From contig OZ037866.1 in the NCBI GenBank assembly GCA_964035575.1, positions 1,426,001 to 1,490,000 of the forward strand: 64,000 nt of DNA, in the 5' to 3' direction. The position numbers and the translations under genes are program-made. A model generated the notes under the pieces. It made no database searches. It saw nothing but the letters and a program-made list of their open reading frames with translations, and was not told the DNA's origin. Shown here piece after piece: positions 6,780 through 31,416 of this stretch (position 1 is the first letter of the stretch; each line of letters begins with the position of its first letter). Origin of the DNA: Rhynchopus sp. YZ270_cl-10. Lineage: Eukaryota > Euglenozoa > Diplonemea > Diplonemida > Diplonemidae.

Positions 6780-9700
6780 ATGGGCAGAATACACACCCTC
6801 GCTGCTGCGATGCTGAAGGTGGTACAGGTAGTGCTTTTTGCCTCGTTTGCGAATGCAGCATCGCCGTGCGACTCACTGTTAACAGGGTCACGTGGGACAA
6901 CACCTTTGACGTAGATAAACTGGTGTACCAAAACTTCTTCGTTCCTATTTGCCAAGGGTACCAGAGTGCACTGGTGCGCCACCCTGAGGTGAACATCACG
7001 ACCACGTCGCACACCGCCCTTGTTGGCGGGAACGATCCCTTTGGCCTGAACAGTGGTGCCTACAAGCTGTGGCTTCACGCACAGATGCTTCACTACAAGG
7101 AGACAGACATTGAGCTGATGTGGCTGGACGCACCCTGGATACAGAGCATCAAGGACTACCTCGAGCCCATCCCACTTCTGCCTGCAGAGAAGGCAGCCTT
7201 CTTCCCAAAGACTGTGCACGAGAACGATGCTGGCGACTTGGTCACAATCCCAATCAAGTCGAACTACCGTATCAACTTCTATAACCACGACCTCTTTGTG
7301 AAGTACAATGTTCAGTGGCCGAAGACGTGGGACGAGCTTGAGGCTGTGTGTCAAAAGGTTACGCTGGGTGAACGTGCATTGGGACGAGACTTCTGGTGTT
7401 TCGACTGGTATGACATCGACACACAGGACCCAAACAGCTTTGCGTCGCTCATTTCAATGCTGGCAAGTGTTGACGGTGGTGGTGACCTGATCCTGCCTGG
7501 TGGCATTGTGAACGTGAACACCCCACAGCTGCGCAAGGCGTTGGTGACGATGAAGCGCTGGATCAACTCCGACGTGATGATCTCCAGCATCGCCTCACGT
7601 GCTGCCGCTTCTGGTCCCACCAGCTTTGGTGGACAAAACTACCTCTTCCTGACTGCATGGACCGAAAAGATTGTCGAGTATCAATGGTATCAGAACTTAT
7701 TTCTAGACTTCAAAGTTAAGATTGGAGGCAGTCTTGGTGGTGAGTACGGTGTGGATGGGACCTGGCACCTTGCGATCAACAAGGCGATGCGTCACAAGGA
7801 CCTCGGTGTGAACCTTGTGAAGGAGCTGATCCCACACCTGTACAACGTGACGATGCATATCCCGAACTTCGTGCCTGCCTGGTCCGGCGTGCTGGACGAC
7901 CCTGTGCGCAAGGCTGCGTGGTGTGCCAAGGTGCCGATGTACTGCGAGTCGTACGATACCCACACAGACTACCACACGAAGCTGTCGTACCGTCCCTCGA
8001 AGGGATGTGGTGCGCTGTACAGCGAGTGTGTGCAGCTCATCGCACAGCATCTGATGAGTGGCTATGTGCACGGTGCCACGGACCTGGAGACTGCAGTGAC
8101 AGACCTGCAGACGGGGCTTGCAAAGCTGCTTGGTGCTGTGAACTTGCAAGAGGCCACTGCAGCATCGGAGAAGGCTGAAGGGAGCAGGATTGCGCTGATT
8201 GTTGTTGCCTCTGTGAGTGCTGTGCTGCTGGTGCTGATTGCAGTGTACGTGCGGACTGCGATGCTGAAGCTGCGCAAGGTTGGCTTCAAGATACCTGTGG
8301 CAGCCATGCTTGGGTTTGTGACGGCTGCGTCGCTTGTGGTGGTGACGGTGGTGGTGCTGACACAGATGGACGCCTCTGCACGCAGCATCTCGGAAGACCT
8401 GGCCCTGCGCCTGCGTGTCGCGTCCCTGCACTCTGTGCAGTCGACCCTGCACAGTGACGACCTGAACAACCCGCTCCTCAGCGAGACGCAGAAGCGCCGC
8501 ACGGCACTCTCCCTCATGATGCACTGGGTGTCGCAGCTCGAAGTGGAGCCGGGTTCGCTCATCTTCACGTTGACGTACGACCAGGTTGCTGCAGAGGTGC
8601 AGGTGCTGATGTCGACAGACAACTCTGTGCAGAAGGAGCACGTCTTCCTTCCTGTGCATGCACCTCCAAACGGTGCCGAAGTGAGCGAAGTGCTGCACGC
8701 CTTCTTGCAGGAGTTCGGCTGGAAGCTGACCCAGGGCCAGCTCTTTGACCCAAAGCAGCAGCACACCCTGAGTGCGGACGAGGAGTACTACGTGAACGTG
8801 AAGAGTGTGGACACCATGCCGTGGCACATTGTGTACATCGTGCCTGTGTCTGCGGTCATGGGCGAGGCGACGGACAGCCGGAACGCAGCACGCAACTACG
8901 GGATTCTCGCCTCACTCATTGCCATTCTTGTTGTCACTGCCTTTGCAACGTTCATCACACGGCCCCTCATCGGAGTGTCGCACCACATGGAGATGGCTCG
9001 TGTCATGCAGTTTGACGAGCACTACGTGCCTGGGTCGTATCTGGCAGAGACACGTGCCCTGCAGGAGGGCTTCCGGTCCATGGCTGAGCTTCTGGTGGAG
9101 TACAAGAAGTTCCTCCCTGGTGCGCTCTTTGAGGAGAAGGAGCAGGACATTGTGCGGAACTCACGACCGCCACCTGGCATCACGAGCGGGACAGCCACAG
9201 TGGTGTTCACAGACATCCGTTCCTCGACTTCGATCTGGGAGGCTGTGCCTCAAGGCATGTGTGAAGCACTGAAGATCCACAACAGAATCATCCGAGAAGC
9301 GATGGATGAGTTTGAAGGCTACGAAGTGAAGACAATCGGGGACGCGTTTATGGTTGCATTTGCGACGGTGCTTGACGGTGTGAACTTCGGGTTGCGTGTG
9401 CACGAGGCTCTCCGCAATGCAACGTGGCCTGCAGAGTTGCTGCATTTCAGACTCTGTGCTGACACAGGCCCGCTCTGGGGTGGGCTGACTGTGCGCATCG
9501 GTGTGAACACGGGACCTGTGACTGTGGAGAAGAACACACTGACGGGTCGGACAGACTACTTCGGACACACTGTGAACGTGGCCTCTCGCCTTGAGAGCAC
9601 GTGCAAGCCAGGTGCTGTTGGACTGCGTCATGAGGTGTGGCAGGAGGAGTGTTCTGGGGTGTGCAGTGCTACTGTGGGTGAGGTGCACAGGATTGAGCTG

Positions 9701-10411
9701 AAGGGTGTGTCTGGGAAGACACCCGTGTGCTGTGTGTGGCCTGCCTCGCTTGCTGGGCGTGTGACGAACCCGCTGATAGAGCGTCGCCTGTCTACTAGCT
9801 CGGTCCACACAACTGCATCTTCTGTGGTGTCAAACACCTCAAGCAAGAGTTGTACGATGTCTTTACCGGGAAGTGTGTCGACGTCTGGGCGTCTGGCAAC
9901 GGTCGGTATTGTGCAGGTAGCTGTCGGGGACGAAGCCCATGTATCAGCAATGCGCACAATGTCAACACACTTGGTAACGTTGAAGTCGTGTCTCGACCGC
10001 AGTGGTGGGCGTATGGTGTCGCTCATCGGCAGTTTTGTGTGCATTGCGTGGAACCTGTCACATGCCGCCCCAGCACACGTTGAGAACTCACTGCGCTTTG
10101 TGCAGTATCTGCACGGCACGTCTGCGATACGTGTTGGTGGCCTTGTGACCGGCACAGTGCACCATGGCGACGTGAGTGCGAATACGTTGCGCTTCGTGAC
10201 TGTGTTGGGAGACGCTGTGCAGAAGTGCTGGCGTCTGTGTGAAGAGGCGAAGAGGGAGGAGGTGTTCTTCCTGTACGAGCCACCTGTGGACACAGTACTG
10301 CCGCAGAACCTTGAGCGTGCGCTGACACCACATAGGACTGGTGTGTATGTGGTGAAGCAGAAGCGGGACAAGTCGCAGATGGATTCAGTTGTGGACAACG
10401 AAATGCTGTGA
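6780..10411 (+). CDS. Receptor adenylate cyclase, copy 1 (active-type catalytic domain, broken start)
   Basis: A membrane receptor predicted to make cAMP from ATP. Layout: signal peptide; solute-binding-protein-like ectodomain to about 8165; membrane span about 8188-8250; short inner loop; second span about 8290-8360; Cache-like outer domain; third span about 8905-8970 with a HAMP-like segment; class III cyclase about 9170-9690. That domain has FTDIRSST and KTIGDAFM (both metal aspartates), RTDYFG, and VNVASRLES with the catalytic Asn and Arg. The Lys/Asp pair in KTIGD and RTDY indicates ATP rather than GTP. A second cyclase-like domain (about 9900-10300) lacks these residues. Oddity: compared with copies 2-4 one A is missing near 6909, so the signal peptide opened at ATG 6780 is out of frame with the rest, which stays open for 1167 codons from 6908. 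This is a recent lesion or a consensus error. Confidence 0.85.
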
Positions 10412-10836
10412 TGTGATTTAGGTGGAAATTAGTTGTGTAAATTATGGAGCAGATCTGCTGTCGCTGCCTCACCCGGTCCCTTAGGGTATCTTCCCTTTTT
10501 GTTATTAAGGAACCTGCCTGATGACCTTTTTGAAAAAAGTGTGTTTTTTAAGACGACTTTCTGTCGTGTTTTTGCGGTGTTTGGGTGAGGATGTGATGGA
10601 AATTTAGAAATATTGGGGTTCCGGGGTCCTTTTCGGGTTTTAAGCAAACATATAGCCGAGAATGTGGTCGGAGCAACGGTGACAGTGCTGTCCAGGGGCT
10701 TTTGTGGGGTGTTTTTCAGTCTGAAAACACTTCAAAAAGTGTCAAATATGTTCAAAACAGGTTGTAATGGAGTCACAGGCCACTTTTGGGGCATATTTGT
10801 GCCAACGGAGGCTGTGTGATGTCAAAAAATATGCCG
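10412..10836. other. Downstream spacer with a fragment of the 57 kb palindrome repeat
   Basis: No gene seen. Bases near 10508-10545 (GAACCTGCCTGATGACC, then TTTTTGAAAAAAGTGTG) match the centre of the large palindrome at 57038-57080, so this is a divergent relative of that repeat. Confidence 0.55.
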
Positions 10837-11165
10837 TTTTTTGTTTTACACCTCGTCCCGAGTTTTTGTCCGAGAATGCGGTTACTAAATAGCTACTCCA
10901 CTAAATAAATCGAGCAAAAATATGGTGAACTCAGCGGAGCCCGATTTTAAAAGTGCCAAAAACGACCTTTTCGTTTTGACGCGTTGTGAGTTCCTCAAAT
11001 GCAATTTTGAAGGGTAAAAAATTCGGGTTTTCTAAGCACAAGCAGTGTTAAGTCAAAAATTTTCGCGAAAAAAAATAGATTTTTTTTGCGTTAAAAGCTC
11101 GGAACCCAGAAACGTCCAATGGCGAAGTTTTTTTCCGGTTTCGTTGCACCCTGTATTTTTACTTA
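10837..11165 (+). repeat. Solitary divergent copy of the 406 bp satellite unit
   Basis: Starts CACCTCGTCCCGAGTTTTTG and follows the satellite unit found at 31477-34703 through CGTTGCACCCTGTATTTTTA. It lacks the roughly 80 bp tail that carries the hairpin. It follows receptor copy 1 as the array follows copy 4. Confidence 0.9.
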
Positions 11166-11394
11166 TTAAATTCTTGAAAATCCGATATTTTACCCAACAT
11201 GGCCAAAACGCGTGCTGTGATGGGGTCACTTTGCGCTGAGAAATGAGTATTTTTGACTAGAATGCATGTACCAGTTTTTACACGATGATAGGGCTAAGAT
11301 TTGTGACCACAATGACCCCACCACTGGATCGCTCCAATCATTCAAATAATTTTAATAATTATAAAGCAGTTTTCGGGAATTTTTATTTTTACCC

Positions 11395-12180
11395 ATGGGT
11401 AGTATCTGGATCCAGTTCCAGGTGATTCCAGGTTTCTCAGATTTTTCGTGAAATTCCAGGTTTTTTCCAGGTATTCCAGGTGATTCCAGGTAATTCCAGG
11501 TTAATTCTAGGTGATTCCAGGTGGGTTAAAGCAGAAATCTGCACGCAACACGAACACACATTCCGATCTGGAAGTGTGGACGATGACAAAACACTCGGTT
11601 GACACTGCTGCTTCCACTGCTGATGGTGCTGTCGCTGCCACTGACACTGCTGCCGCTGGAACTGCTGCTGCTGTCTACCCTCTTCCTTTTCTGTTCCCTC
11701 TGTTTCACCGCAATCTTTTGTACTTGCGTGATCATTGCGTTTGGTTTCCTCCCCATGGTTTTTGTTGTTCTCTCTACACAGTGCAAATGTGAATAGGAAG
11801 AGAACTCGGGGATAGAGGGGAGTGAGCGCTCCAGCGACAATGGCAAAGACTAATAAACGAAAGGTTTTTTAATTTCCATCACATGGTGTTCCGGAGGGGG
11901 CCAAGATTGACATGTCCTTGACAGTGGGGGGTCCACTTTATAATTTGTGCGGGTTATTTTGGCCGGGAAATATGCATCTTCCAAAAACACCGGCATTTGC
12001 ATTTTTGGAATCTGTCCGTCCAGTAGTGGGGTCACTTTGCCAAAATGGACAAATTCTTGGTACATACGTGAAGACACCAGTAAAAAAGCCTAATTCCAGA
12101 AAAAATCCAGATCTGGAATACGTGGAATTTTTCTGGAATTTTTCTGGAATTACCTGGAATCTGGATCCAGATACTACATG
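11395..12180. repeat. TTCCAGG-rich blocks in inverted orientation
   Basis: 11399-11530 holds GTAGTATCTGGATCCAG followed by degenerate TTCCAGGTGA units. 12080-12177 carries the reverse complement, ending CTGGATCCAGATACTAC. The pair could be the arms of an older element into which other sequences, including the left end of the 11981-12376 element, have moved. No gene is visible between them. Confidence 0.55.
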
Positions 12181-12376
12181 TTTACCGATATGCACATGGG
12201 TACCGTGCGCCTGCGGCGCTGCCTGTTCCTACCAGCTTCTACAGGCAAACACTTGGCCCCCTTTACCTTACACTGACGGGTTTTGACGAAACCAAGAACT
12301 TGTCCATTTCGGCAAAGTGACCCCACCACAGTGCGGATGGATTCCGGAAATGCCAATCGCGGCATGTTTTGGGGCT
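11981..12376. mobile_element. Small inverted-repeat element (MITE-like), about 0.4 kb
   Basis: The left arm at 11981-12060 and right arm at 12291-12374 are imperfect reverse complements of about 80 bp built on the dispersed TGACCCCACCACTGG motif. The left outer end reads CCAAAAACACCGGCATTTGC. There is no coding capacity. The left flank is the repeat that is split by the 3.8 kb transposon at 2062-5873. Confidence 0.6.
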
Positions 12377-12940: not shown

Positions 12941-12942
12941 AA

Positions 12943-13690: not shown

Positions 13691-13699
13691 CACATAAAA

Positions 13700-15920: not shown

Positions 15921-15981
15921 TAGGTATGGAGAGCGAGCACCTTAGAAGGAGAAAACACGTACATTTTTTTGACCACTTTTC

Positions 15982-16049
15982 GCGATAACATGTATACTTT
16001 TTGTGTACGTGTTATCGCAAATGGAAACAAAAAGTATACGTGTTATCGC
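15982..16049. promoter_or_regulatory. Three GTATACGTGTTATCGC-like sites, one inverted
   Basis: GCGATAACATGTATAC at 15982-15997, TGTACGTGTTATCGC at 16003-16017 and GTATACGTGTTATCGC at 16034-16049. The first two form a hairpin. They lie about 0.7 kb upstream of receptor copy 2. They could be protein-binding sites or transposon ends; the sequence alone does not decide. Confidence 0.4.
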
Positions 16050-16067
16050 AATTTGCCCTTTTTTTTT

Positions 16068-16127: not shown

Positions 16128-16716
16128 GAAGCGCTCTCTCTGTGTGATGCGTTTGGATGTGCCTGACGGGACTGACGAAAACGTTGATCAGCAGCGCAAA
16201 ATCGTCCTCACGGATGGTGTGGAATGGCGGAAAAATTCTGTCAGCACCACGCCTGCTTCGTGGGTTACACGGCGTTCCTCACTCAACCTATCTTGTAAAA
16301 AGAAGATAGACGCAGGAGCCTATTCCTGGAAACTATTTTCGTCTCCGCTAGCACACAAAAGAACTCGACAGAATAAGCATTTTCACACATAATGTTTTTT
16401 GCTGTTGACAAGGGAACGTGAACCCACTGACTGCAATATTAGAAGAACAAAAAGTGAAGTAAGACTGAAAATAAACAACGTTATTGAGTATTTTTAGCAG
16501 TATTTTGTTATATTCGCCTTACCCTGCATCCAATGATCCTGACTCACGAGAGGACCTACATGGTACTCGTGAGACGTGCATCTTGGTTCTGCTCCACACA
16601 GTGATTTTGCTTTGCGTAAGGCTCACTTACAATGCCAATGCCAGACACATAACCCCACACACAACACCACAGACACAATTCAGTCTTTCTACCCGTGCCC
16701 ATTCTGTTGCTTCAGA

Positions 16717-19700
16717 ATGGTCAGAATACACACCCTCGCTGCTGCGATGCTGGAGGTGGTACAGGTAGTGCTTTTTGCCTCGTTTGCGAATGCAGCATCG
16801 CCGTGCGACTCACTGTTAGCAGGGTCACGTGGGACAACACCTTTGAACGTAGATAAACTGGTGCACCAAAACTTCTTTGTGTCTATTTGCGAAGAGTACC
16901 AGAGTGCACTGGTGCGCCACCCTGAGGTGAACATCACGACCACGTCACACAACGACCTCGTCGGCGGGAACGATCCCTTTGGCCTGAACAGTGGTGCCTA
17001 CAAGCTGTGGCTTCACGCACAGATGCTTCACTACAAGGAGACAGACATTGAGCTCATGTGGCTGGACGCACCCTGGATACAGAGCATCAAGGACTACCTC
17101 GAGCCCATCCCACTTCTGCCTGCAGAGAAGGCAGCCTTCTTCCCAAAGACTGTGCACGAGAATGATGCTGGCGACTTGGTCACAGTCCCAATCATGTCGA
17201 ACTACCGTATGAACGTCTACAACCATGACCTCTTTGTGAAGTACAATGTTCAGTGGCCGAAGACGTGGGACGAGCTTGAGGCTTTGTGCCATAAGATTAC
17301 GCTGGGTGAACGTGCATTGGGACGAGACTTCTGGTGTTTCGACTGGTATGACATCGACACACAGGAACCAAACAGCTTCGCGTCGCTCATTTCAATGCTG
17401 GCAAGTGTTGACGGTGGTGGTGACCTGATCCTGCCTGGTGGCATTGTGAACGTGAACACCCCACAGCTGCGCAAGGCGTTGGTGACGATGAAGCGCTGGA
17501 TCAACTCAGACGTGATGACCCCCAGTGAGGCCTCACTTGCTGCCGCTTCTGGTCCCACAGACTTTGCCACACAAAACTACCTCTTCCTGCAAGCATGGAC
17601 CGAAAAGATTGTCGATTATCAATGGTATCAGAACTTTTTTCTAGACTTCAAAGTCAAGATTGGAGGCAGTCTTGGTGGTGAGTACGGTGTGGACGGGACC
17701 TGGCACCTTGCGATCAACAAGGCGATGCGCCACAAGGACCTCGGTGTCAACCTTGTGAAGGAGCTGATCCCACACCTGTACAACGTGACGATGCACATCC
17801 CGAACTTCGTGCCTGCCTGGTCCGGCGTGCTGGACGACCCTGTGCGCAAGGCTGCGTGGTGTGCCAAGGTGCCGATGTACTGCGAGTCGTACGATACCCA
17901 CACAGACTACCACACGAAGCTGTCGTACCGTCCCTCGAAGGGATGTGGTGCGCTGTACAGCGAGTGTGTGCAGCTCATCGCACAGCACCTGATGAGCGGC
18001 TATGTGCACGGTGCCACGGACCTGGAGACTGCAGTGACAGACCTGCAGACGGGGCTTGCAAAGCTGCTTGGTGCTGTGAACTTGCACGAGGCCACTGCAG
18101 CATCGGAGAAGGCTGAAGGGAGCAGGATTGCGCTGATTGTTGTTGCCTCTGTGAGTGCTGTGCTGCTGGTGCTGATTGCAGTGTACGTGCGGACTGCGAT
18201 GCTGAAGCTGCGCAAGGTTGGCTTCAAGATACCTGTGGCAGCCATGCTTGGGTTTGTGACGGCTGCGTCGCTTGTGGTGGTGACGGTGGTGGTGCTGACA
18301 CAGATGGACGCCTCTGCACGCAGCATCTCGGAAGACCTGGCCCTGCGCCTGCGTGTCGCGTCCCTGCACTCTGTGCAGTCGACCCTGCACAGTGACGACC
18401 TGAACAACCCGCTCCTCAGCGAGACGCAGAAGCGCCGCACGGCACTCTCCCTCATGATGCACTGGGTGTCGCAGCTCGAGGTGGAGCCGGGTTCGCTCAT
18501 CTTCACGTTGACGTACGACCAGGTTGCTGCAGAGGTGCAGGTGTTGATGTCGACAGACAACTCTGTGCAGAAGGAGCACGTCTTCCTTCCTGTGCATGCA
18601 CCTCCAAACGGTGCCGAAGTGAGCGAAGTGCTGCACGCCTTCCTGCAGGAGTTTGGCTGGAAGCTGACCCAGGGCCAGCTCTTCGACCCAAAGCAGCAGC
18701 ACACCCTGAGTGCGGACGAGGAGTACTACGTGAACGTGAAGAGTGTGGACACCATGCCGTGGCACATTGTGTACATCGTGCCTGTGTCTGCGGTCATGGG
18801 CGAGGCGACGGACAGCCGGAACGCAGCACGCAACTACGGGATTCTTGCCTCATTCATTGCCATTCTTGTTGTCACTGCCTTTGCAACGTTCATCACACGG
18901 CCCCTCATCGGAGTGTCGCACCACATGGAGATGGCTCGTGTCATGCAGTTTGACGAACACTACGTGCCTGGGTCGTACCTGGCAGAGACACGTGCCCTGC
19001 AGGAGGGCTTCCGGTCCATGGCTGAGCTTCTGGTTCAGTACAAGACGTTTCTCCCACAGTCGATCTTTATCCATGCCGACTCAGATGATGTAGTGGAGGA
19101 GTCAGTACTTTCGGTAACCGAGACAATGAGCAGCGCCATGTCCAAGTCTAAGTCTATGGCGAGCGCTGGCAGCAAGACTTATGTTGACGCACGCCAGGCC
19201 ATGGCAGTCTCTGCACACACGGATCTGAGTTCCATGAAGGAGTCGAAGGGTTGCCTTCTCATCTGCAGCATCCAGAACCTGGGTGCGCTGTCGCAGGGAG
19301 GTGAGTACACGGAGTTCTTCCGCACTTTGGAGAAGGTTACACACGAACACACTGGTGTGCTGCACATCTTCAACTCAATGTCACCTGGGAAGATTGCGGT
19401 GTCCTTTGGCTTAACTCACGCACGTGCACCGAGCACCTGTGTGGACAAGGCTGCCTCTATGGCGTTTGAGATACTGCGTATCCCACTCGTGCAGAACAGG
19501 ACGATTCTGCTCTCTGTGACACTGCACCAGGGGAAGATGAGGACAGGAAACCTTGGGTCTGATCTGACAAGAGGGTTTGGCATCATGGGTCGAGGTGCGG
19601 GACATGCGCTGCTTGTGGACGAGTATGCGGGCAATCTGGCGTGTGTGGCGCAGACGTCACTGATTTTGGCTACTTCTGGAGTGGCACAGGTCATGAAGAA

Positions 19701-20058
19701 CCGTGTGTTGATGCGTTCTGTGAACGTGTTGCGTGGCGACAGCGACAACGACAACGTGCACGTGACACAGCTGCGTATGGTGCTTGAAGTGGAAGAAGAC
19801 GAGTGGATGTACCAGCTTGAGGAGGTGGAGAAGAAACAGGCAAAAGAGAAAGAGAAGCTGCAGGGCTGGATTGACGCCCTCCGTAACAACGGTGGGGCCG
19901 AGTACGCAAAGGTGCGTGAGGAGGTTGCAGCTGCCACGTTCGCAGGCGACCCGGTGGCCGAAGCTGTTGCAGAGCAGCTGATCACAATCGAAGCTAGTGA
20001 TGCTATGGATGAGTACTACGTGCGTCGTGCCTTTTCCACCAAAAGAGTACGAACGTAG
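16717..20058 (+). CDS. Receptor with pseudocyclase output, copy 2
   Basis: A 1113-residue membrane receptor. ATG 16717 is chosen because the next 30 residues (MVRIHTLAAAMLEVVQVVLF...) form a signal peptide shared by all copies; the frame is open further upstream only through 5' leader sequence. Domains: solute-binding-like ectodomain about 30-465, membrane spans at about 471-492, 505-527 and 707-729 with a Cache-like outer domain between the last two, HAMP-like segment to about 770, a Ser-rich linker, then a class III cyclase-like fold about 840-1010. In that fold the metal aspartates are replaced (ICSIQN for FTDIRS, SPGKIAVSF for IGDAFMVAF) and the catalytic Asn/Arg motif is gone, so no cyclase activity is expected. 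A charged coiled-coil-like tail (EEDEWMYQLEEVEKKQ) follows. It may act as a dimer partner or regulator of an active cyclase such as copy 1. That role is inferred. Confidence 0.9.
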   Translation: MVRIHTLAAAMLEVVQVVLFASFANAASPCDSLLAGSRGTTPLNVDKLVHQNFFVSICEEYQSALVRHPEVNITTTSHNDLVGGNDPFGLNSGAYKLWLHAQMLHYKETDIELMWLDAPWIQSIKDYLEPIPLLPAEKAAFFPKTVHENDAGDLVTVPIMSNYRMNVYNHDLFVKYNVQWPKTWDELEALCHKITLGERALGRDFWCFDWYDIDTQEPNSFASLISMLASVDGGGDLILPGGIVNVNTPQLRKALVTMKRWINSDVMTPSEASLAAASGPTDFATQNYLFLQAWTEKIVDYQWYQNFFLDFKVKIGGSLGGEYGVDGTWHLAINKAMRHKDLGVNLVKELIPHLYNVTMHIPNFVPAWSGVLDDPVRKAAWCAKVPMYCESYDTHTDYHTKLSYRPSKGCGALYSECVQLIAQHLMSGYVHGATDLETAVTDLQTGLAKLLGAVNLHEATAASEKAEGSRIALIVVASVSAVLLVLIAVYVRTAMLKLRKVGFKIPVAAMLGFVTAASLVVVTVVVLTQMDASARSISEDLALRLRVASLHSVQSTLHSDDLNNPLLSETQKRRTALSLMMHWVSQLEVEPGSLIFTLTYDQVAAEVQVLMSTDNSVQKEHVFLPVHAPPNGAEVSEVLHAFLQEFGWKLTQGQLFDPKQQHTLSADEEYYVNVKSVDTMPWHIVYIVPVSAVMGEATDSRNAARNYGILASFIAILVVTAFATFITRPLIGVSHHMEMARVMQFDEHYVPGSYLAETRALQEGFRSMAELLVQYKTFLPQSIFIHADSDDVVEESVLSVTETMSSAMSKSKSMASAGSKTYVDARQAMAVSAHTDLSSMKESKGCLLICSIQNLGALSQGGEYTEFFRTLEKVTHEHTGVLHIFNSMSPGKIAVSFGLTHARAPSTCVDKAASMAFEILRIPLVQNRTILLSVTLHQGKMRTGNLGSDLTRGFGIMGRGAGHALLVDEYAGNLACVAQTSLILATSGVAQVMKNRVLMRSVNVLRGDSDNDNVHVTQLRMVLEVEEDEWMYQLEEVEKKQAKEKEKLQGWIDALRNNGGAEYAKVREEVAAATFAGDPVAEAVAEQLITIEASDAMDEYYVRRAFSTKRVRT

Positions 20059-20317: not shown

Positions 20318-20351
20318 CGCTGCACCCCAAATACTGACCTGAATTTTACCT

Positions 20352-21486: not shown

Positions 21487-21489
21487 TTA

Positions 21490-22780
21490 GTACAGAGAGA
21501 ACCAACCATTTTTTTTGTTTTTACCACTTTTTCATTACCCCACCCCATCTCTGAGAAGAGTATTTGTGTTTACTTCAGCCAAACGTTGCAGGCGCAAAGT
21601 GATCTTTGGGAAATGGTACATGAACATAGTTGAACCATTAGGAACCGTAGCGTTTATTCTCGTTTCTAATAACTACTTCGTGTCAGAAGACTTAAACATC
21701 GCATCCCCAGATTTTGCTGTGTTCCGAAGGTCCCTGAGGAAAATGGACAGCCGCAACGTTTTGGGCAACGGGGTAAGAACGGCAGTAAAGCTGAACTGCA
21801 GGGAGTGAGGTGAGTGCCGGCCCTCTGGTTCGCTTACGCGAGGATTGGTAGCCAACGAAGTTCCTTCTGGGCCGTACGAGGAACGTCTGCTGCACCGCAA
21901 GGCGTGTTTCTTGAGCTCAACAAATCCGTGTTCATTGCCAGGATAAATCTAGCTATTGGGTCTACATCATAATAGCTTATCGTACATGGTGGCACATTTG
22001 TATAATTACCGTGTGGTTTCATTTTTGTACGAGTATACAATAGGCCTGGAAATGAAAGACGGCGTTCTTCGGTTGTCATGAGTCTTACCGTTTTCCCCTT
22101 CCCTCCCTCCCTCCCTTTTATGCTCCACCTCTCCCCCCTACTTCAGGAGACGCGGGTTTTCGGGGGTTTTTTCGGGACTTTTGGGGTTTGAAAATAAATG
22201 GATGCGATCAACAAACAACAAACAACAAAAAAGAACGGGGGTATTTCATTTTTACGTTTCACGCCAAGCCCTTTCATTGTCAGATTTCATACAACCCCTC
22301 TCTTGAGTGCTGATCTGATGCCGCACCTGCTACCGCTGTATTAGGACTATTAGGACGGTTTACATGGTTTTGCCACCCGAGTTGCTCCACCCACTGTATC
22401 TCTTGGAATCCTCGTTTATTTGTGTGATTCCATTCACTTGGACTAACCAAATGATGATAGATCTAGGTTCATCACAACGTAGTGTCTGTTTGTGTCGCAT
22501 AGCGTACGAAGTATCTTGTGTCACGGTCGGCGAGCCCGAGAAGCTGTGACCTCTTTTGGCACTCAGGACACCCATGAAGTGGACATTCTAAAGGAAAGCA
22601 ACCTTGACCCTCTATCGGAAGGCTCCATAGAGGGGTGGCAGGTGGTAGTTGCAGAACGTTCTTGGTGTACTCCAATGGAGAACTGTTGACTCAACCCCCT
22701 TCCCTGCACACATCATTAAAAGCTGTGGACGTCATGTTGCCTCTAACCATAATAATAATATGTTTTTCATCAGTGCCGTC
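21490..22780. other. Spacer upstream of receptor copy 3
   Basis: No convincing gene. It contains a short CCCT microsatellite near 22092-22120. Homology with the leader of receptor copy 4 begins only at about 22790. Confidence 0.5.
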
Positions 22781-22888
22781 AAGGCACATCCAAACGCATC
22801 ACACAACACCACAGACACAATTCAGTCTTTCCTTTCTACCCGTACCCATTCTGTTGCTTCAGAACAAATACACACCCTCGCTGCTGCG

Positions 22889-25800
22889 ATGCTGAAGGTG
22901 GTACAGGTAGTGCTTTTTGCCTCGTTTGCGAATGCAGCATCGCCGTGCGACTCACTGTTAGCAGGGTCACGTGGGACAACACCTTTGAACGTAGATAAAC
23001 TGGTGCACCAAAACTTCTTTGTGTCTATTTGCGAAGAGTACCAGAGTGCACTGATGCGCCACCCGGATGTAAACATCACGACCACGTCACACAACGACCT
23101 CGTCGGCGGGAACGATCCCTTTGGCCTGAACAGTGGTGCCTACAAGCTGTGGCTTCACGCACAGATGCTTCACTACAAGGAGACAGACATTGAGCTGATG
23201 TGGCTGGACGCACCCTGGATACAGAGCATCAAGGACTACCTCGAGCCCATCCCACTTCTGCCTGCAGAGAAGGCAGCCTTCTTCCCAAAGACTGTGCACG
23301 AGAACGATGCTGGCGACTTGGTCACAGTCCCAATCAAGTCGAACTACCGTATCAACTTCTACAACCACGACCTCTTTGTGAAGTACAATGTTCAGTGGCC
23401 GAAGACGTGGGACGAGCTTGAGGCTGTGTGTCAAAAGGTTACGCTGGGTGAACGTGCATTGGGACGAGACTTCTGGTGTCTCGACTGGAACGTCGACACA
23501 CAAGACACAAACCGCTTTTCGTCCTACATTTCAATGATGGCAAGTGTTGATGGTGGTGGTGACCTGATCCTGCCTGGTGGCATTGTGAACGTGAACACCC
23601 CACAGCTGCGCAAGGCGTTGGTGACGATGAAGCGCTGGATCAACTCAGACGTGATGATCTCCAGCATCGCCTCACGTGCTGCCGCTTCTGGTCCCACCAG
23701 CTTTGACACAGCAAACTACCTTATTTCACAAACGTGGACCGAAAAAATTATAAAGTACGAGGACAAACAGAACTCTGTTAACTTCAAAATAAAGATCGGA
23801 AGCAGTCTTGGTGGTGAGTACGGTGTGGACGGGAGTTGGCACCTTGCGATCAACAAGGCGATGCGCCACAAGGACCTCGGTGTCAACCTTGTGAAGGAGC
23901 TGATCCCACACCTGTACAACGTGACGATGCACATCCCGAACTTCGTGCCTGCCTGGTCCGGCGTGCTGGACGACCCTGTGCGCAAGGCTGCGTGGTGTGC
24001 CAAGGTGCCGATGTACTGCGAGTCGTACGATACCCACACAGACTACCACACGAAGCTGTCGTACCGTCCTTCGAAGGGATGTGGTGCGCTGTACAGCGAG
24101 TGTGTGCAGCTCATCGCACAGCATCTGATGAGCGGCTATGTGCACGGTGCCACGGACCTGGAGACTGCAGTGACAGACCTGCAGACGGGGCTTGCAAAGC
24201 TGCTTGGTGCTGTGAACTTGCAAGAGGCCACTGCAGCATCGGAGAAGGCTGAAGGGAGCAGGATTGCGCTGATTGTTGTTGGCTCTGTGAGTGCTGTGCT
24301 GCTGGTGCTGATTGCAGTGTACGTGCGGACTGCGATGCTGAAGCTGCGCAAGGTTGGCTTCAAGATACCTGTGGCGGCCATGCTTGGGTTTGTGACGGCT
24401 GCGTCGCTTGTGGTGGTGACGGTGGTGGTGCTGACACAGATGGACGCCTCTGCACGCAGCATCTCGGAAGACCTGGCCCTGCGCCTGCGTGTCGCGTCCC
24501 TGCACTCTGTGCAGTCGACCCTGCACAGTGACGACCTGAACAACCCGCTCCTCAGCGAGACGCAGAAGCGCCGCACGGCACTCTCCCTCATGATGCACTG
24601 GGTGTCGCAGCTCGAGGTGGAGCCGGGTTCGCTCATCTTCACGTTGACGTACGACCAGGTTGCTGCAGAGGTGCAGGTGCTGATGTCGACAGACAACTCT
24701 GTGCAGAAGGAGCACGTCTTCCTTCCTGTGCACGCACCTCCAAACGGTGCCGAAGTGAGCGAAGTGCTGCACGCCTTCCTGCAGGAGTTCGGCTGGAAGC
24801 TGACCCAGGGCCAGCTCTTCGACCCAAAGCAGCAGCACACCCTGAGTGCGGACGAGGAGTACTACGTGAACGTGAAGAGTGTGGACACCATGCCGTGGCA
24901 CATTGTGTACATCGTGCCTGTGTCTGCGGTCATGGGCGAGGCGACGGACAGCCGGAACGCAGCACGCAACTACGGGATTCTTGCCTCACTCATTGCCATT
25001 CTTGTTGTCACTGCCTTTGCAACGTTCATCACACGGCCCCTCATCGGAGTGTCGCACCACATGGAGATGGCTCGTGTCATGCAGTTTGACGAGCACTACG
25101 TGCCTGGGTCGTACCTGGCAGAGACACGTGCCCTGCAGGAGGGCTTCCGGTCCATGGCTGAGCTTCTGGTGGAGTACAAGACGTTTCTCCCACAGTCCAT
25201 ATTTGCAGCAAGTGATGATTCAGATGAGGTGCTTCCGGAGTCGACAGGCACAACGGGCGAGGGGATCACGACAGCGAGCTACGTTTCAAAGTCTCATGTG
25301 AGCTCTAACAGCAGGAGTGCGTGTGAAGCGCGCCAGGCCATGATCTCTGCACACACGGATCTGAGTTCCATGAAGGAGTCGAAGGGTTGCCTTCTCATCT
25401 GCAGCATCCAGAACCTGGGTGCGCTGTCGCAGGGAGGTGAGTACACGGAGTTCTTCCGCACTTTGGAGAAGGTTGCACACGAACACACTGGTGTGCTGCA
25501 CATCTTCAACTCAATGTCACCTGGGAAGATTGCGGTGTCCTTTGGCCTGACACGTTTACGTCCACAGAGCACCTGTGTGGACAAGGCTGCCTCAATGGCG
25601 TTTGAGATACTGCGTATCCCACTCGTGCAGAACAGGACGATTCTGCTCTCTGTGACACTGCACCAGGGGAAGATGAGGACAGGAAACCTTGGGTCTGAGC
25701 GGACAAGAGGGTTCGGCATCATGGGTCGAGGCGCGGGACATGCGCTGCTTGTGGACGAGTATGCGGGTGATCTGGCGTGTGTGGCGCAGACGTCACTGAT

Positions 25801-26194
25801 TTTGGCTACTTCTGGAGTGGTGCAGGTCATGAAGAACCGTGTGTTGATGCGTTCTGTGAACGTGCTGCGTGGCGACAGCGAGGGCGACAACGTGCACGTG
25901 ACACAACTGCGTGAGGTGCTTGCAGTGGCAGACGATGAGTGGATGTACCAGCTTGAGGAGGTGGAGAGGAACCAAGCAAAAGACTCGGACAAGCTGCAGG
26001 GCTGGATTGACGCCCTCCGTAACAACGGCGAAGCGGAATGCGCAAAGGTGCGTGAGGAGGTTGCAGCTGCCACGTTCGAAGGTGACCCGGTGGCCGAAGC
26101 TGTTGCAGAGCAGCTCAGCACAATCGAAGCGAACGACGACATCACTGCGTACTCCGTGCGTCGTGCCTACACCAACAAGAAAAAGCTTTGTTGA
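22889..26194 (+). CDS. Receptor with pseudocyclase output, copy 3
   Basis: A 1101-residue receptor of the same plan as copy 2. The start is MLKVVQVVLFASFANAA at 22889; the earlier ATG used by copies 1 and 2 has been changed here (EQIHTLAAAML), leaving a shorter but intact signal peptide. The ectodomain differs from copies 1 and 2 in two blocks: CLDWNVDTQDTNRFSSYISM and TANYLISQTWTEKIIKYEDK. The two outer spans, Cache-like domain and HAMP-like segment are almost unchanged. The C-terminal cyclase-like domain lacks both metal aspartates and the Asn/Arg catalytic motif, and ends in a charged coiled-coil-like tail and VRRAYTNKKKLC. The linker before it (AASDDSDEVLPESTGTTGEG) is specific to this copy. 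Its 5' leader and 3' flank match copy 4, so 3 and 4 are the closest pair. Confidence 0.9.
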   Translation: MLKVVQVVLFASFANAASPCDSLLAGSRGTTPLNVDKLVHQNFFVSICEEYQSALMRHPDVNITTTSHNDLVGGNDPFGLNSGAYKLWLHAQMLHYKETDIELMWLDAPWIQSIKDYLEPIPLLPAEKAAFFPKTVHENDAGDLVTVPIKSNYRINFYNHDLFVKYNVQWPKTWDELEAVCQKVTLGERALGRDFWCLDWNVDTQDTNRFSSYISMMASVDGGGDLILPGGIVNVNTPQLRKALVTMKRWINSDVMISSIASRAAASGPTSFDTANYLISQTWTEKIIKYEDKQNSVNFKIKIGSSLGGEYGVDGSWHLAINKAMRHKDLGVNLVKELIPHLYNVTMHIPNFVPAWSGVLDDPVRKAAWCAKVPMYCESYDTHTDYHTKLSYRPSKGCGALYSECVQLIAQHLMSGYVHGATDLETAVTDLQTGLAKLLGAVNLQEATAASEKAEGSRIALIVVGSVSAVLLVLIAVYVRTAMLKLRKVGFKIPVAAMLGFVTAASLVVVTVVVLTQMDASARSISEDLALRLRVASLHSVQSTLHSDDLNNPLLSETQKRRTALSLMMHWVSQLEVEPGSLIFTLTYDQVAAEVQVLMSTDNSVQKEHVFLPVHAPPNGAEVSEVLHAFLQEFGWKLTQGQLFDPKQQHTLSADEEYYVNVKSVDTMPWHIVYIVPVSAVMGEATDSRNAARNYGILASLIAILVVTAFATFITRPLIGVSHHMEMARVMQFDEHYVPGSYLAETRALQEGFRSMAELLVEYKTFLPQSIFAASDDSDEVLPESTGTTGEGITTASYVSKSHVSSNSRSACEARQAMISAHTDLSSMKESKGCLLICSIQNLGALSQGGEYTEFFRTLEKVAHEHTGVLHIFNSMSPGKIAVSFGLTRLRPQSTCVDKAASMAFEILRIPLVQNRTILLSVTLHQGKMRTGNLGSERTRGFGIMGRGAGHALLVDEYAGDLACVAQTSLILATSGVVQVMKNRVLMRSVNVLRGDSEGDNVHVTQLREVLAVADDEWMYQLEEVERNQAKDSDKLQGWIDALRNNGEAECAKVREEVAAATFEGDPVAEAVAEQLSTIEANDDITAYSVRRAYTNKKKLC

Positions 26195-27000
26195 GAATTC
26201 TGAGTGCGGAATAGACAATGAAACGAAAGGAAATGGTTGTATTACTCAATGTTATGTACATTCCAACCTGGTACTGGGCACCCAGTATCCATCCGGATTG
26301 TCGTAATCCACATTTTTAGGGTACGTATTGTCGTTTCCCCTTTTATTTGATACCAAGGTACTTGCCTGGCGAAGGGCTTAGTACACCTTGGCAGGGTGTG
26401 GCTGGACCCCTAGGTCGCGGTACGAAGAGAAACACAAAAGGAGCAAAAAAATGCAGTTTCTTTCACAATGAATGATTTTTTTTATTGTACAACACTCCGG
26501 GCTGAAAGCTATATTTTAACTACTATTTTGCGTGGTCGAAGTTCTCGAAGGACTCGAAGGTCGCAAAGTATACCGTTTAGACTTTGTAAAAACTTGGTCG
26601 GCTTTTCATCCTAATATTTGACCACGACCCCCTGTGAAGTCTTTGGCAAAAATTGCGCCCGATCACGTCACAGGGACACACTACCACTGTTCATTTTTCT
26701 TTTTTCCGACCCCCCCGTGAAATTGTATTCAACTTTGTTTTAACATTGGGTTTGTGCCCAACCCCACCCCCCCTTTGTTTTCCCAACCCCACCCCAAAAT
26801 AGCCCTGGCTCCTTCTGATGAGCGCGGTCACGGGGCTGAATCCTGGTCAAGGAGCAGACCGCCGAAACCAGAAATTAACTCTTTTACCCCTCCCTTTTTT
26901 TCTTGTTTCCACAAAGGAGTGTTAGCCAAAAGGGACACAAGATAGTAAGGCTAGATACTCAACAAAGTTTAATGCAATCTTGCTTGTCGTTACCTTTTGC
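26195..27000. other. Spacer with no recognised gene
   Basis: AT-rich; the first 60 bases after the stop are shared with the region after copy 4. A lone CCCCCCGTGAAATTGT at 26707 matches an end of the 27102-27305 element. Confidence 0.5.
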
Positions 27001-27001
27001 A

Positions 27002-27101
27002 GTTAACATCAAACTAAAATGCTTTTTTCGGCAAAAAAACAAAAGCCAAAGCAATACAGAGAGAACCAGCCAATTTTTCAACATACAAACGATCTTTCGA
27101 T
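27002..27101 (+). repeat. Dispersed 105 bp repeat, copy 1
   Basis: Begins GTTAACATCAAACTAAAATG and ends ACGATCTTTCGATCCCCC. Almost identical to 46003-46107; half-copies flank the 20771-21486 element. The inverted-repeat element at 27102 starts exactly at its right end. Confidence 0.85.
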
Positions 27102-27305
27102 CCCCCGTGAAATTGTCCCCCCCAAAAAAACCGGTATTTTGCCGCCAGGGACAATTTCAAGGGAGTCGCGGGGACTACCTTTGCTCTCCCTTCTTCACAC
27201 CAAAACGGCCACCCCCCTACAGTACGAGAAATTGTCCTCCCTTTTGCCGTACGAGATATTGTCGCCCCATCACTTTTTCCCCCAGGGGGGACAATTTCAC
27301 GGGGG
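27102..27305. mobile_element. 204 bp MITE-like element with 21 bp perfect ends
   Basis: CCCCCGTGAAATTGTCCCCC at the left end is the exact reverse complement of GGGGGACAATTTCACGGGGG at the right end. Further weaker inverted copies of GAAATTGTCC lie inside (about 27160, 27228, 27250). No coding capacity. Confidence 0.75.
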
Positions 27306-27980
27306 AGGGTCGGTAAATAGTTTACACTTTACATATTTTTCCAACTACCCGTGACTCTTGTGATAAGTCAAGCTTCTGAATATTTCCCACAACTTGTTTC
27401 CCCCTCTCTTGTTATCCACAACCCTTCTGCTTGAGGCACATACCGTAAATTTGTGCCATAATTTTGCGGAAGCGAACAACAAACAACCTTATTTTCCCTC
27501 CCCGTTTTGGTCTTTGAGCAACAAGAAACACAGGAACGAGCCTCTCGAGCATTATTACACTTTTTTTTTTTTAGGTTTTCATTTTACACCTACTGTTGTA
27601 GACCGCAGGGAACTTTGTGCTTTCATCCGGATGCCTGGCATCGTATGTGGGTCAGAGTCAGGGGTGCCTGCGTCAATAACTGTAGTTTTATATTTGTTGC
27701 TTTCCCCCCAATCGCATACGATAGTGTTTTTCCACGGAAACTCATGAAAAATGAGTTCTGTGCTATTCACAGAAATTGATAGGCGGTTGTGCGTATCTAA
27801 CAACCAAAACAAAGAAAGTACCAGAAGAAAAAAAAATGAACAAAATGTTGGCAAAGAAAATATGGGGATTATGAGAACGGGAAAATAAAGCAAATCCCAA
27901 GCATATTATTCATTGCCGGAGACATGGCTATTGATTTACATCAATTAGTACATGGCCCAATATTTGACAGAACTTTCTTA
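27306..27980. other. Spacer upstream of receptor copy 4
   Basis: Nothing recognised. Homology to the copy 3 leader starts at about 28008 (CACATCCAAACGCATCACAC). Confidence 0.5.
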
Positions 27981-28113
27981 TTTTTACGTTTTTCGTCAAT
28001 CCCACCAGACACATCCAAACGCATCACACAACACCACAGACACAATTCAGTCTTTCCTTTCTACCCGTACCCATTCTGTTGCTTCAGAACAAATACACAC
28101 CCTCGCTGCTGCG

Positions 28114-31100
28114 ATGCTGAAGGTGGTACAGGTAGTGCTTTTTGCCTCGTTTGCGAATGCAGCATCGCCGTGCGACTCACTGTTAACAGGGTCACGTGGG
28201 ACAACACCTTTGAACGTAGATACACCAGTGCACGAAAACTTCTTTGTGTCTATTTGCGAAGAGTACCAGAATGCACTAACGCGCCACCCTGAGGTGAACA
28301 TCACGACCACGTCGCACACCGCTCTTGTTGGGGGGAATGATCCCCTCGGTCTGCCCAGTGGTGCCTACAAGCTGTGGCTGTACGCACAGATGCTTCACTA
28401 CAAGGAGACAGACATTGAGCTCATGTGGCTGGACGCACCCTGGATACAGAGCATCAAGGACTACCTCGAGCCCATCCCACTTCTGCCTGCAGAGAAGGCA
28501 GCCTTCTTCCCAAAGACTGTGCACGAGAACGATGCTGGCGACTTGGTCACAATCCCAATCAAGTCGAACTACCGTATCAACTTCTACAACCACGACCTCT
28601 TTGTGAAGTACAATGTTCAGTGGCCGAAGACGTGGGACGAGCTTGAGGCTGTGTGTCAAAAGGTTACGCTGGGTGAACGTGCATTGGGACGAGACTTCTG
28701 GTGTCTCGACTGGAACGTCGACACACAAGACACAAACCGCTTTTCGTCCTACATTTCAATGATGGCAAGTGTTGACGGTGGTGGTGACCTGATCCTGCCT
28801 GGTGGCATTGTGAACGTGAACACCCCACAGCTGCGCAAGGCGTTGGTGACGATGAAGCGCTGGATCAACTCAGACGTGATGATCTCCAGCATCGCCTCAC
28901 GTGCTGCCGCTTCTGGTCCCACCAGCTTTGACACAGCAAACTACCTTATTTCACAAACTTGGACCGAAAACATTATCAAGCATGAGGACAAACAGAACTC
29001 TGTTAACTTCAAAATAAAGATCGGAGGCAGTCTTGGTGGTGAGTACGGTGTGGACGGGAGCTGGCACCTTGCGATCAACAAGGCGATGCGCCACAAGGAC
29101 CTCGGTGTCAACCTTGTGAAGGAGCTGATCCCACACCTGTACAACGTGACGATGTATATCCCAAACTTCGTGCCTGCCTGGTCCGGCGTGCTGGACGACC
29201 CTGTGCGCAAGGCTGCGTGGTGTGCCAAGGTGCCGATGTACTGCGAGTCGTACGAGACCTACACAGACTACCACACGAAGCTGTCGTACCGTCCCTCGAA
29301 GGGATGTGGTGCGCTGTACAGCGAGTGTGTGCAGCTCATCGCACAGCATCTGATGAGCGGCTATGTGCACGGTGCCACAGACCTGGAGACTGCAGTGACA
29401 GACCTGCAGACGGGGCTTGCAAAGCTGCTTGGTGCTGTGAACTTGCAAGAGGCCACTGCAGCATCGGAGAAGGCTGAAGGGAGCAGGATTGCGCTGATTG
29501 TTGTTGGCTCTGTGAGTGCTGTGCTGCTGGTGCTGATTGCAGTGTACGTGCGGACTGCGATGCTGAAGCTGCGCAAGGTTGGCTTCAAGATACCTGTGGC
29601 GGCCATGCTTGGGTTTGTGACGGCTGCGTCGCTTGTGGTGGTGACGGTGGTGGTGCTGACACAGATGGACGCCTCTGCACGCAGCATCTCGGAAGACCTG
29701 GCCCTGCGCCTGCGTGTCGCGTCCCTGCACTCTGTGCAGTCGACCCTGCACAGTGACGACCTGAACAACCCGCTCCTCAGCGAGACGCAGAAGCGCCGCA
29801 CGGCACTCTCCCTCATGATGCACTGGGTGTCGCAGCTCGAGGTGGAGCCGGGTTCGCTCATCTTCACGTTGACGTACGACCAGGTTGCTGCAGAGGTGCA
29901 GGTGCTGATGTCGACAGACAACTCTGTGCAGAAGGAGCACGTCTTCCTTCCTGTGCACGCACCTCCAAACGGTGCCGAAGTGAGCGAAGTGCTGCACGCC
30001 TTCCTGCAGGAGTTCGGCTGGAAGCTGACCCAGGGCCAGCTCTTCGACCCAAAGCAGCAGCACACCCTGAGTGCGGACGAGGAGTACTACGTGAACGTGA
30101 AGAGTGTGGACACCATGCCGTGGCACATTGTGTACATCGTGCCTGTGTCTGCGGTCATGGGCGAGGCGACGGACAGCCGGAACGCAGCACGCAACTACGG
30201 GATTCTTGCCTCATTCATTGCCATTCTTGTTGTCACTGCCTTTGCAACGTTCATCACACGGCCCCTCATCGGAGTGTCGCACCACATGGAGATGGCTCGT
30301 GTCATGCAGTTTGACGAACACTACGTGCCTGGGTCGTACCTGGCAGAGACACGTGCCCTGCAGGAGGGCTTCCGGTCCATGGCTGAGCTTCTGGTTCAGT
30401 ACAAGACGTTTCTGCCGCAGTCGATCTTTGTTCCAAATGATGATTCAGATGAAGTGTTGATGGATTCAACTGACACAACAGGACTCGAAGGGATCACGAC
30501 AGCGAGCTACGTTTCAAAGTCTCATGTGAGCACTGCCAGCAGGAGTGCGTGTGAAACGCGCCAGGCCATGATCTCTGCACACACGGATCTGAGTTCCATG
30601 AAGGAGTCGAAGGGTTGCCTTCTTATCTGCAGCATCCAGAACCTGGGTGCGCTGTCACAGGGAGGTGAGTACACGGAGTTCTTCCACACGCTGGAGAAAC
30701 TTGCACACGAACACAGTGGTGTGCTGCACATCTTCAACTCAATGTCACCTGGGAAGATTGCGGTGTCCTTTGGCTTGACACGTTCACGTGCACCGAGCAC
30801 CTGTGTGGATAAGGCTGCCTTCATGGCGTTTGAGATGCTGCGTATCCCACTCGTGCAGAACAGGACGATTCTGCTCTCTGTGACACTGCACCAGGGGAAG
30901 ATGAGGACAGGAAACCTTGGGTCTGAGCGGACAAGAGGGTTCGGCATCATGGGTCGAGGTGCGGGACATGCGCTGCTTGTGGACGAGTATGCGGGTGATC
31001 TGGCATGTGTGGCGCAGACGTCACTGATTTTGGCTACTTCTGGAGTGGTGCAGGTCATGAAGAACCGTGTGCTACTGCGTTCAGTGAACGTGTTGCGTGG

Positions 31101-31416
31101 CGAGAACGACAACGTGCACGTGACACAACTGCGTGAGGTGCTTGCAGTGGCAGACGATGAGTGGATGTACCAGCTTGAGGAGGTGGAGAGGAACCAAGCA
31201 AAAGACTCGGACAAGCTGCAGGGCTGGATTGACGCCCTCCGTAACAACGGTGAAGCGGAATGCGCAAAGGTGCGTGAGGAGGTTGCAGCTGCCACGTTCG
31301 AAGGTGACCCGGTGGCCGAAGCTGTTGCAGAGCAGCTCAGCACAATCGAAGCGAACGACGACATCACTGCGTACTCCGTGCGTCGTGCCTACACCAACAA
31401 GAAAAAGCTTTGTTGA
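28114..31416 (+). CDS. Receptor with pseudocyclase output, copy 4
   Basis: A 1100-residue receptor with the same domain order as copies 2 and 3. Start at ATG 28114 (MLKVVQVVLFASFANAA), as in copy 3. It is the most diverged in the first 100 residues (DTPVHENFFVSICEEYQNAL, GGNDPLGLPSGAYKLWLYAQ) and has YETYTDY where the others have YDTHTDY, yet the membrane and Cache-like parts match copy 3. The cyclase-like domain keeps KGCLLICSIQNLGALSQ and GNLGSERTRGFGIMGRGAGH but lacks metal and catalytic residues. The linker is unique (VPNDDSDEVLMDSTDTTGLE). The 406 bp satellite begins only about 60 bases after the stop, so the transcript end may lie in or beside it. Confidence 0.9.
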   Translation: MLKVVQVVLFASFANAASPCDSLLTGSRGTTPLNVDTPVHENFFVSICEEYQNALTRHPEVNITTTSHTALVGGNDPLGLPSGAYKLWLYAQMLHYKETDIELMWLDAPWIQSIKDYLEPIPLLPAEKAAFFPKTVHENDAGDLVTIPIKSNYRINFYNHDLFVKYNVQWPKTWDELEAVCQKVTLGERALGRDFWCLDWNVDTQDTNRFSSYISMMASVDGGGDLILPGGIVNVNTPQLRKALVTMKRWINSDVMISSIASRAAASGPTSFDTANYLISQTWTENIIKHEDKQNSVNFKIKIGGSLGGEYGVDGSWHLAINKAMRHKDLGVNLVKELIPHLYNVTMYIPNFVPAWSGVLDDPVRKAAWCAKVPMYCESYETYTDYHTKLSYRPSKGCGALYSECVQLIAQHLMSGYVHGATDLETAVTDLQTGLAKLLGAVNLQEATAASEKAEGSRIALIVVGSVSAVLLVLIAVYVRTAMLKLRKVGFKIPVAAMLGFVTAASLVVVTVVVLTQMDASARSISEDLALRLRVASLHSVQSTLHSDDLNNPLLSETQKRRTALSLMMHWVSQLEVEPGSLIFTLTYDQVAAEVQVLMSTDNSVQKEHVFLPVHAPPNGAEVSEVLHAFLQEFGWKLTQGQLFDPKQQHTLSADEEYYVNVKSVDTMPWHIVYIVPVSAVMGEATDSRNAARNYGILASFIAILVVTAFATFITRPLIGVSHHMEMARVMQFDEHYVPGSYLAETRALQEGFRSMAELLVQYKTFLPQSIFVPNDDSDEVLMDSTDTTGLEGITTASYVSKSHVSTASRSACETRQAMISAHTDLSSMKESKGCLLICSIQNLGALSQGGEYTEFFHTLEKLAHEHSGVLHIFNSMSPGKIAVSFGLTRSRAPSTCVDKAAFMAFEMLRIPLVQNRTILLSVTLHQGKMRTGNLGSERTRGFGIMGRGAGHALLVDEYAGDLACVAQTSLILATSGVVQVMKNRVLLRSVNVLRGENDNVHVTQLREVLAVADDEWMYQLEEVERNQAKDSDKLQGWIDALRNNGEAECAKVREEVAAATFEGDPVAEAVAEQLSTIEANDDITAYSVRRAYTNKKKLC

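Follow-up and report, generated by a model that had tools for sequence, protein, structure and literature searches.

Sensor and output cassettes joined at a conserved seam in receptor adenylate cyclases and their dead C2-only siblings in a diplonemid

Receptor-type adenylate cyclases of trypanosomes (GRESAG4/ESAG4) carry a conserved cyclase domain and a variable ectodomain resembling periplasmic binding proteins, as described in the available parts of two sources (PMC6027212, PMC2386149). The present analysis concerns four receptor genes (c1-c4) of the diplonemid Rhynchopus sp. YZ270_cl-10, which lie on a stretch of 64,000 nucleotides (nt), referred to as the window (contig OZ037866.1, here C34:1426001-1490000, in a genome of 152.4 Mb and 126 contigs). 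In these genes, sensor and output behave as separate cassettes that meet at a conserved seam, YK.FLP, immediately before the cyclase, and near-identical sensors carry either a tandem of an active (C1) and a dead (C2) cyclase domain (AC-type) or a dead C2-like cyclase alone (C2-only type). The genes probably encode surface receptors whose parts have been exchanged, by ectopic recombination and gene conversion, between receptor-type cyclases and their dead C2-only siblings.

The likeness to GRESAG4/ESAG4 lies in the best solved relatives of C1 and in the conserved cyclase behind a variable ectodomain. While GRESAG4/ESAG4 have a single membrane helix and a single cyclase domain, the build that characterizes kinetoplastid receptor-type cyclases, the genes here depart from it with three spans (found in c2 and protein P0005) and a C1 followed by a dead C2. 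Further differences are the ectodomain of the sugar-type solute-binding protein (SBP) class, the C2-only siblings, the two-way module swaps, and the length of the segment at the place of the trypanosome delta-subdomain, 25 residues compared with 47 in the alignment with 1fx4. In mammalian transmembrane and soluble adenylate cyclases, C1 and C2 of one chain jointly form the catalytic site. The genes described here resemble them in having two cyclase domains per chain, and the pseudo-cyclase output matches ADCY10 (E 5e-4), but C1 keeps all six catalytic residues and C2 almost none.

According to the available text of PMC5995499, a conserved element on the N-terminal side of the cyclase core has served as the point for joining a foreign sensor to a cyclase; those fusions are engineered and involve one sensor, whereas the joints here are natural and connect several sensors with two outputs. 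Domain exchange among paralogous receptors by gene conversion is described in the available part of a CEACAM study (PMC8860441), which is not known to concern exchange between sensor and output. A literature search on diplonemid adenylate cyclases gave no paper on the subject, judged by title, and the word "cyclase" occurs 0 times in the main text of the Diplonema papillatum genome paper (PMC10161547). The host group is little studied for adenylate cyclases. Natural sensor-to-output swaps in both directions, at near-codon resolution, offer a test of how a transducer lets unrelated sensors drive one enzyme, and a family of catalytically dead receptor cyclases, occurring next to active ones that share their sensor, lends itself clearly to tests of pseudo-enzyme receptors.

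The sensor-output junction of c1-c4

Long open reading frames on the forward strand were found at 5981-10411 (c1), 16573-20058 (c2), 22649-26194 (c3) and 27949-31416 (c4), each with a bacterial-type solute-binding domain, a membrane part and a cytoplasmic output. In the nucleotide alignment, c1 matched c2, c3 and c4 at 194/200, 198/200 and 194/200 nt in positions 8901-9100, but at 61/169, 69/172 and 73/175 nt in positions 9119-9318 (Fisher P 1e-35 to 4e-42 for the contrast). The drop from 97-99% to 36-42% identity falls at 9101-9118, and the final base that is still shared at the break lies inside TACAAGA (9101-9107). Among themselves, c2-c4 have a variable Ser-rich linker after the seam (110-154 matches of 172-175 nt), beyond which they agree at 721/778, 708/772 and 746/772 nt. 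An earlier reading made from the sequence alone (the sequence-only reading) had described a sharp switch after YK(K/T)FLP, and the alignment bears this out as a break with no gradient. Recombination at the transducer joint, which it had named as the cause, is well supported by this sharp break and by the swaps at other loci described below. Further members of both output types, for which it had proposed a search, are locus L004 with the output of c2-c4 and L006, L007 and L008 with the output of c1. Misassembly of neighbouring domains left no sign and is unlikely, since both output types recur at separate places. The features are given below in window coordinates.

6780..10411, + strand: c1, SBP-type receptor with active tandem cyclase output (AC-type), frame-broken near 6901-6908 as assembled
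6908..8188, + strand: c1 solute-binding ectodomain (sensor), PF13416 32.4 bits, cut-off 27
8189..9100, + strand: c1 membrane part with three hydrophobic spans, extracellular segment and HAMP-like helix region (from c2 hydropathy; HAMP weak, Cache unsupported)
9101..9118, + strand: c1 seam YKKFLP, swap joint and probable transducer element
9188..9760, + strand: c1 C1, class III cyclase domain with full catalytic residues, PF00211 94.5 bits
9884..10408, + strand: c1 C2, degenerate second cyclase domain, profile match to class III cyclases at E 2e-5
16717..20058, + strand: c2, SBP-type receptor with C2-only dead output, ATG at 16717 or 16747
19039..19056, + strand: c2 seam YKTFLP
19246..19818, + strand: c2 pseudo-cyclase, ending in EWMYQL (19801-19818)
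22889..26194, + strand: c3, SBP-type receptor with C2-only dead output, seam 25175-25192, EWMYQL 25937-25954
28114..31416, + strand: c4, SBP-type receptor with C2-only dead output, seam 30400-30417, EWMYQL 31159-31176

Active and dead cyclase outputs

The C1 domain of c1 lies well within the class III cyclases (PF00211, 94.5 bits against a cut-off of 21.9), and D38, K77, D81, D152, N159 and R163, which we take to be the catalytic residues, were kept in C1 of 55/55 aligned modules. Its closest solved relatives were the trypanosome GRESAG4.3 and 4.1 (1fx4, E 8e-24), and three D. papillatum cyclases were among the named relatives. In the C2 half of the active modules, the Lys and the second Asp were kept in 0/55, the first-metal Asp in 4/55 and the Arg in 6/55, c1 included, and the C2 profile matched class III cyclases at E 2e-5. 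The description of the c1 output in the sequence-only reading, a complete class III cyclase plus a degenerate one, agrees with these results. Since C2 keeps almost none of the key residues, a C1 paired with its own C2 should have an incomplete site, and pairing of C1 with C1 would be needed; from the general working of class III cyclases, we infer that the active site would be formed by such C1:C1 pairing.

In the output of c2-c4, 0/6 catalytic residues were found (overlay by eye), and the test for an active cyclase failed. The alignment A1 comprises 27 such pseudo outputs, from which L026 (seam expression unmatched) and L005 (frame-broken) had been dropped; the full catalytic set was present in 0/27, the first-metal Asp in 1/27 (L040) and an Asp at the second metal position in seven (L025, L031-L034, L036 and L038), a pattern expected of a decayed cyclase. 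In these seven, the Asp sits in GD, which may be a half-way stage of decay. No PF00211 hit was obtained in any of the 27 members (Pfam). Homology to the class III fold was found with profile A1 in the PDB (3r5g, E 6e-6, besides the ADCY10 match given above), and hhalign matched A1 to C2 of c1 at 97.5% (E 3e-11), with 95.2% (E 2.6e-8) for a separate C2 alignment. The sequence-only reading had called this output unrelated-looking and without catalytic residues: the loss of residues stands, but unrelatedness is ruled out by the match to C2 (hhalign 95-97%). Because of this match, the output appears to be a C2-like pseudo-cyclase, and c2-c4 look like c1 minus the catalytic C1. After the pseudo-cyclase domain, WM(Y/F) was found in 27/27 and EWM(Y/F) in 26/27 outputs, compared with WMY in 0/55 active-module rows. 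The pseudo-cyclase is under purifying selection, with a ratio of nonsynonymous to synonymous changes (dN/dS) of 0.13-0.36 among c2, c3, c4 and L004 and of 0.17 for L017-L019.

Module exchange and the explanations weighed

Ten close modules were compared in nucleotides (c1, L006, L007, L008, L041, L042, L043, L045, L046 and L047). An SBP sensor stands in front of the modules of c1, L006, L007 and L008, a PA and laminin-G sensor in L041 and L042, a second sensor of that kind in L045, L046 and L047, and a sensor with a weak HAMP match (18 bits, cut-off 25) in L043; sensor Pfam scans covered L041, L042, L043, P0011 (= L045), P0014 (= L047) and P0015, 41/42 pieces of which were found in L046. Identity among the ten modules was 94.1-97.7% (87.9-89.5% for L046), and the c1 module was 95.2-96.7% identical to the other-sensor modules of L041, L042, L043, L045 and L047 and 89.0% to that of L046. 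Near-identical tandem modules are present behind four sensor classes, and the exchange is two-way. The homologous stretch that c1 shares with L041, L042 and L043 starts at positions 9100, 9100 and 9099 of the window, respectively; in the 90 nt before the seam, 88-90 positions match among the SBP genes and 88-90 among the five PA/laminin-G genes, but 32-44 between the groups. The two PA/laminin-G sensors share 27.6-28.2% protein identity in the three pairs listed. A second joint was located at L041:4089 in 3/3 comparisons (with L045, L046 and L047), 168 nt before the seam, so both PA/laminin-G classes share a longer piece. Outside the ten, P0019 combines a single-span sensor of a different SBP type with a module from the six-transmembrane (6-TM) family, and P0021 is similar. 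The swap-pair counts of 30 and 15 contain duplicates, as L045 and P0011 are one gene. A 5'-nucleotidase C-terminal domain precedes the cyclase in P0025 as a further sensor kind. Exon shuffling at the joint was rejected, as open frames pass through it and introns are not needed.

The seam motif lies directly N-terminal of the cyclase, the position of the class III transducer element. Its Y1 and P6 were invariant in 55/55 modules of alignment A3, whose rows were not cut by the seam expression and which is the fair test of invariance; in A1 the invariance is partly by construction, because the rows were cut at that expression. The expression was present in 166/182 proteins, and the 16 misses include YKAYMP in P0019 and P0021 and YKAFMP in L025 and L031-L034. 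Position and a loose likeness to FGRY suggest that YK.FLP is probably the cyclase transducer element.

The family is large. With the c1 module (9110-10408) as query, 97/97 scored places of 602 candidates reached at least 53%, and nine places besides c1 showed 85-97% protein identity to the c1 module. A genome search with PF00211 gave at least 150 places above the cut-off (150 scored of 493 candidates), a 6-TM cyclase query gave 357 proteins at E<=1e-3, possibly including other species, and the C2-only query gave 61 places at E<=1e-3 among 121 scored, part of them partial. Arrays of cyclases of about 700 amino acids with several spans and the same seam were observed on contigs C17, C5, C14 and C8 and make up by far the largest share of the family.

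Signs of continuing exchange were seen in the sensors. The SBP part of c1 is 95.8% identical to that of the C2-only gene c2, compared with 91.9-93.0% to the AC-type genes L006-L008, whose sensors are mutually closest (96.9-98.1%), and the c1 module is nearest L007 (97.7%). Sensor and membrane part were near-identical between AC-type and C2-only genes (98.3-99.1% nt), and the SBP genes were not grouped in the module tree. In four quartets tried, runs of conflicting sites numbered 13, 8, 15 and 19 against expected values of 27.6, 20.8, 27.2 and 27.4, with runs as low in 0, 0, 2 and 13 of 5000 shuffles. The conflicting groupings occur in blocks, and the sensors form patchwork mosaics that cut across the two output types; SBP-type sensors vary mainly in patches of the binding domain.

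Several results weigh against shuffling between active genes and C2-only siblings. In the SBP tree, the grouping of c1 with c2 had a bootstrap-like support of only 0.59, the membrane-part tree puts c1 toward the AC-type copies (support 0.615), and the module tree has weak nodes (0.061 and 0.224). The pseudo output failed to match C1 with hhalign (probability 0.15), and C1 against C2 likewise failed (0.4-0.7), so that the test has little power against a descent of the pseudo output from C1. In a third protein search, 5/5 hits of the C2-only output were proteins of the same genome, and its conservation in other species was not shown by these matches. In addition, c1 is 1 nt short at about 6901-6908 relative to seven copies (c2, c3, c4, L004, L006, L007 and L008; L005 did not cover the site and L010 was diverged), and this missing nucleotide puts the ATG at 6780 in another frame than the sensor. 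The frame across this stretch is intact in L006, L007 and L008, and c1 may be a pseudogene or contain a sequence error.

An artefact of assembly, with wrong sensors joined to outputs, might be suspected from the tandem repeats in which the region is rich and from the frame break in c1, but it is highly improbable, as the joints are found again at distinct loci on contigs C34, C11 and C90 and the gene models of a second record set equal the loci exactly (7/29 proteins compared, and P0014 too); P0005 and P0006 are exact translations of L007 and L008. A single old fusion for each output, followed by ordinary duplication and divergence with no continuing exchange, would agree with the mutual closeness of the L006-L008 sensors. 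It is considered improbable, since the c1 sensor is nearer c2 than L006-L008, the conflicting sites come in blocks and the modules do not sort by sensor in their tree. The role of the C2-only receptors is less settled. They could stand alone, the pseudo-cyclase and EWMY tail docking an unrelated effector while cyclases are not tuned, which would suit the broad C2-only family, the tail kept in the C2-only outputs and the strong purifying selection on the pseudo-cyclase; the near-identity of sensor and membrane part with AC-type genes would instead favour mixed dimers, and the stand-alone role is possible, if somewhat doubtful. A combinatorial system, in which many sensors and two outputs are recombined at the joint and C2-only members act as dead co-receptors tuning active ones with the same sensor, is a tentative and rather unlikely proposal.

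For the favoured reading, shuffling by ectopic recombination and gene conversion, repeated events between paralogues would be kept where the coupling of sensor to output by the transducer survives. A ligand closing the sensor would move the transducer, and AC-type receptors would then make cyclic AMP (cAMP) through C1:C1 pairing. The C2-only type would make no cAMP and would most likely pair with the AC-type via the common membrane part, as modulator or decoy; alternatively, another partner would be bound through the EWMY tail. We hypothesize such pairing of dead and active receptors. A pairing of active with decoy receptors that would bind related ligands, as the sequence-only reading had suggested, is plausible, but the sensors differ mainly in patches of the binding domain, so that a shared ligand may be doubted, and c1 itself is frame-broken as assembled.

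Sensor, membrane part and surroundings of the locus

The ectodomains of c1-c4 belong to SBP_bac_1/SBP_bac_8 (Pfam, 32.4-42.5 bits, cut-offs 26-27), and among solved structures the c2 ectodomain best matched ABC substrate-binding proteins (6j9w, E 1e-15; trehalose/maltose-binding 1eu8; MalE3). As these relatives are of the sugar type, a sugar ligand may be guessed. Three hydrophobic spans were obtained by hydropathy in c2, P0005 and P0009, the second span of P0009 being two overlapping calls. Cache was found in 0/12 SBP-type members (Pfam), with no Cache chain in the PDB profile search, in which the best rows were engineered proteins judged spurious; a Cache identity found no support. HAMP was found in 1/12 members (E 0.046, below the Pfam cut-off), with no HAMP chain in the PDB profile search. 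Of the common cassette described in the sequence-only reading, the near-identity and three spans remain, whereas the Cache-like part found no support and the HAMP-like part little.

Mean dS per 30-codon window was 0.00-0.12 in the membrane part and 0.14-0.83 in three sensor patches, where dN was also raised (0.09-0.37). The confinement of high dS and dN to these patches indicates that most of the gene has been homogenised and the patches have not. The third patch aligned with 6j9w around 'lfmrnW', a segment presumably touching the ligand in maltose-binding proteins. Positive selection on the sensor was not shown by pairwise dN/dS of the SBP part (0.23-0.74); mean dN exceeded dS in four 30-codon windows (starts 180, 195, 330 and 345), from at most 2.4 mean changes each.

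Another C2-only copy, L005 (C34:1421890-1425313), lies just upstream of the window, in pieces across different frames. Pure tandem arrays were observed at 472-941 (9-bp unit, x52) and 6038-6584 (8-bp unit, x68), the latter adjoining c1 upstream with the frame kept open through the array. A 407-bp unit is present in 7.9 tandem copies at 31477-34703 beside c4, and a piece at 10839-11163, after c1, is 96% like it. This unit is dispersed genome-wide (127 matches), and its role as driver of the exchange was set aside, a link to exchange not being shown. A 20-mer that we assume to be spliced-leader-like occurs 736 times in the genome with at most one mismatch, compared with 0 for the reversed control; of those listed, one matches exactly and all others carry the same single mismatch. 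Together with an amastin-like protein in the window and the D. papillatum cyclases among the relatives of C1, this points to a genome that is probably euglenozoan and diplonemid. An inverted repeat at 56478-57622 has two 563-nt arms, 99% complementary, with a 19-nt spacer. The window also contains ordinary genes encoding a sulfatase (42456-43928) and an amino acid transporter (54293-55783), and an amastin-like membrane protein (52355-53125) with a score just under the cut-off.

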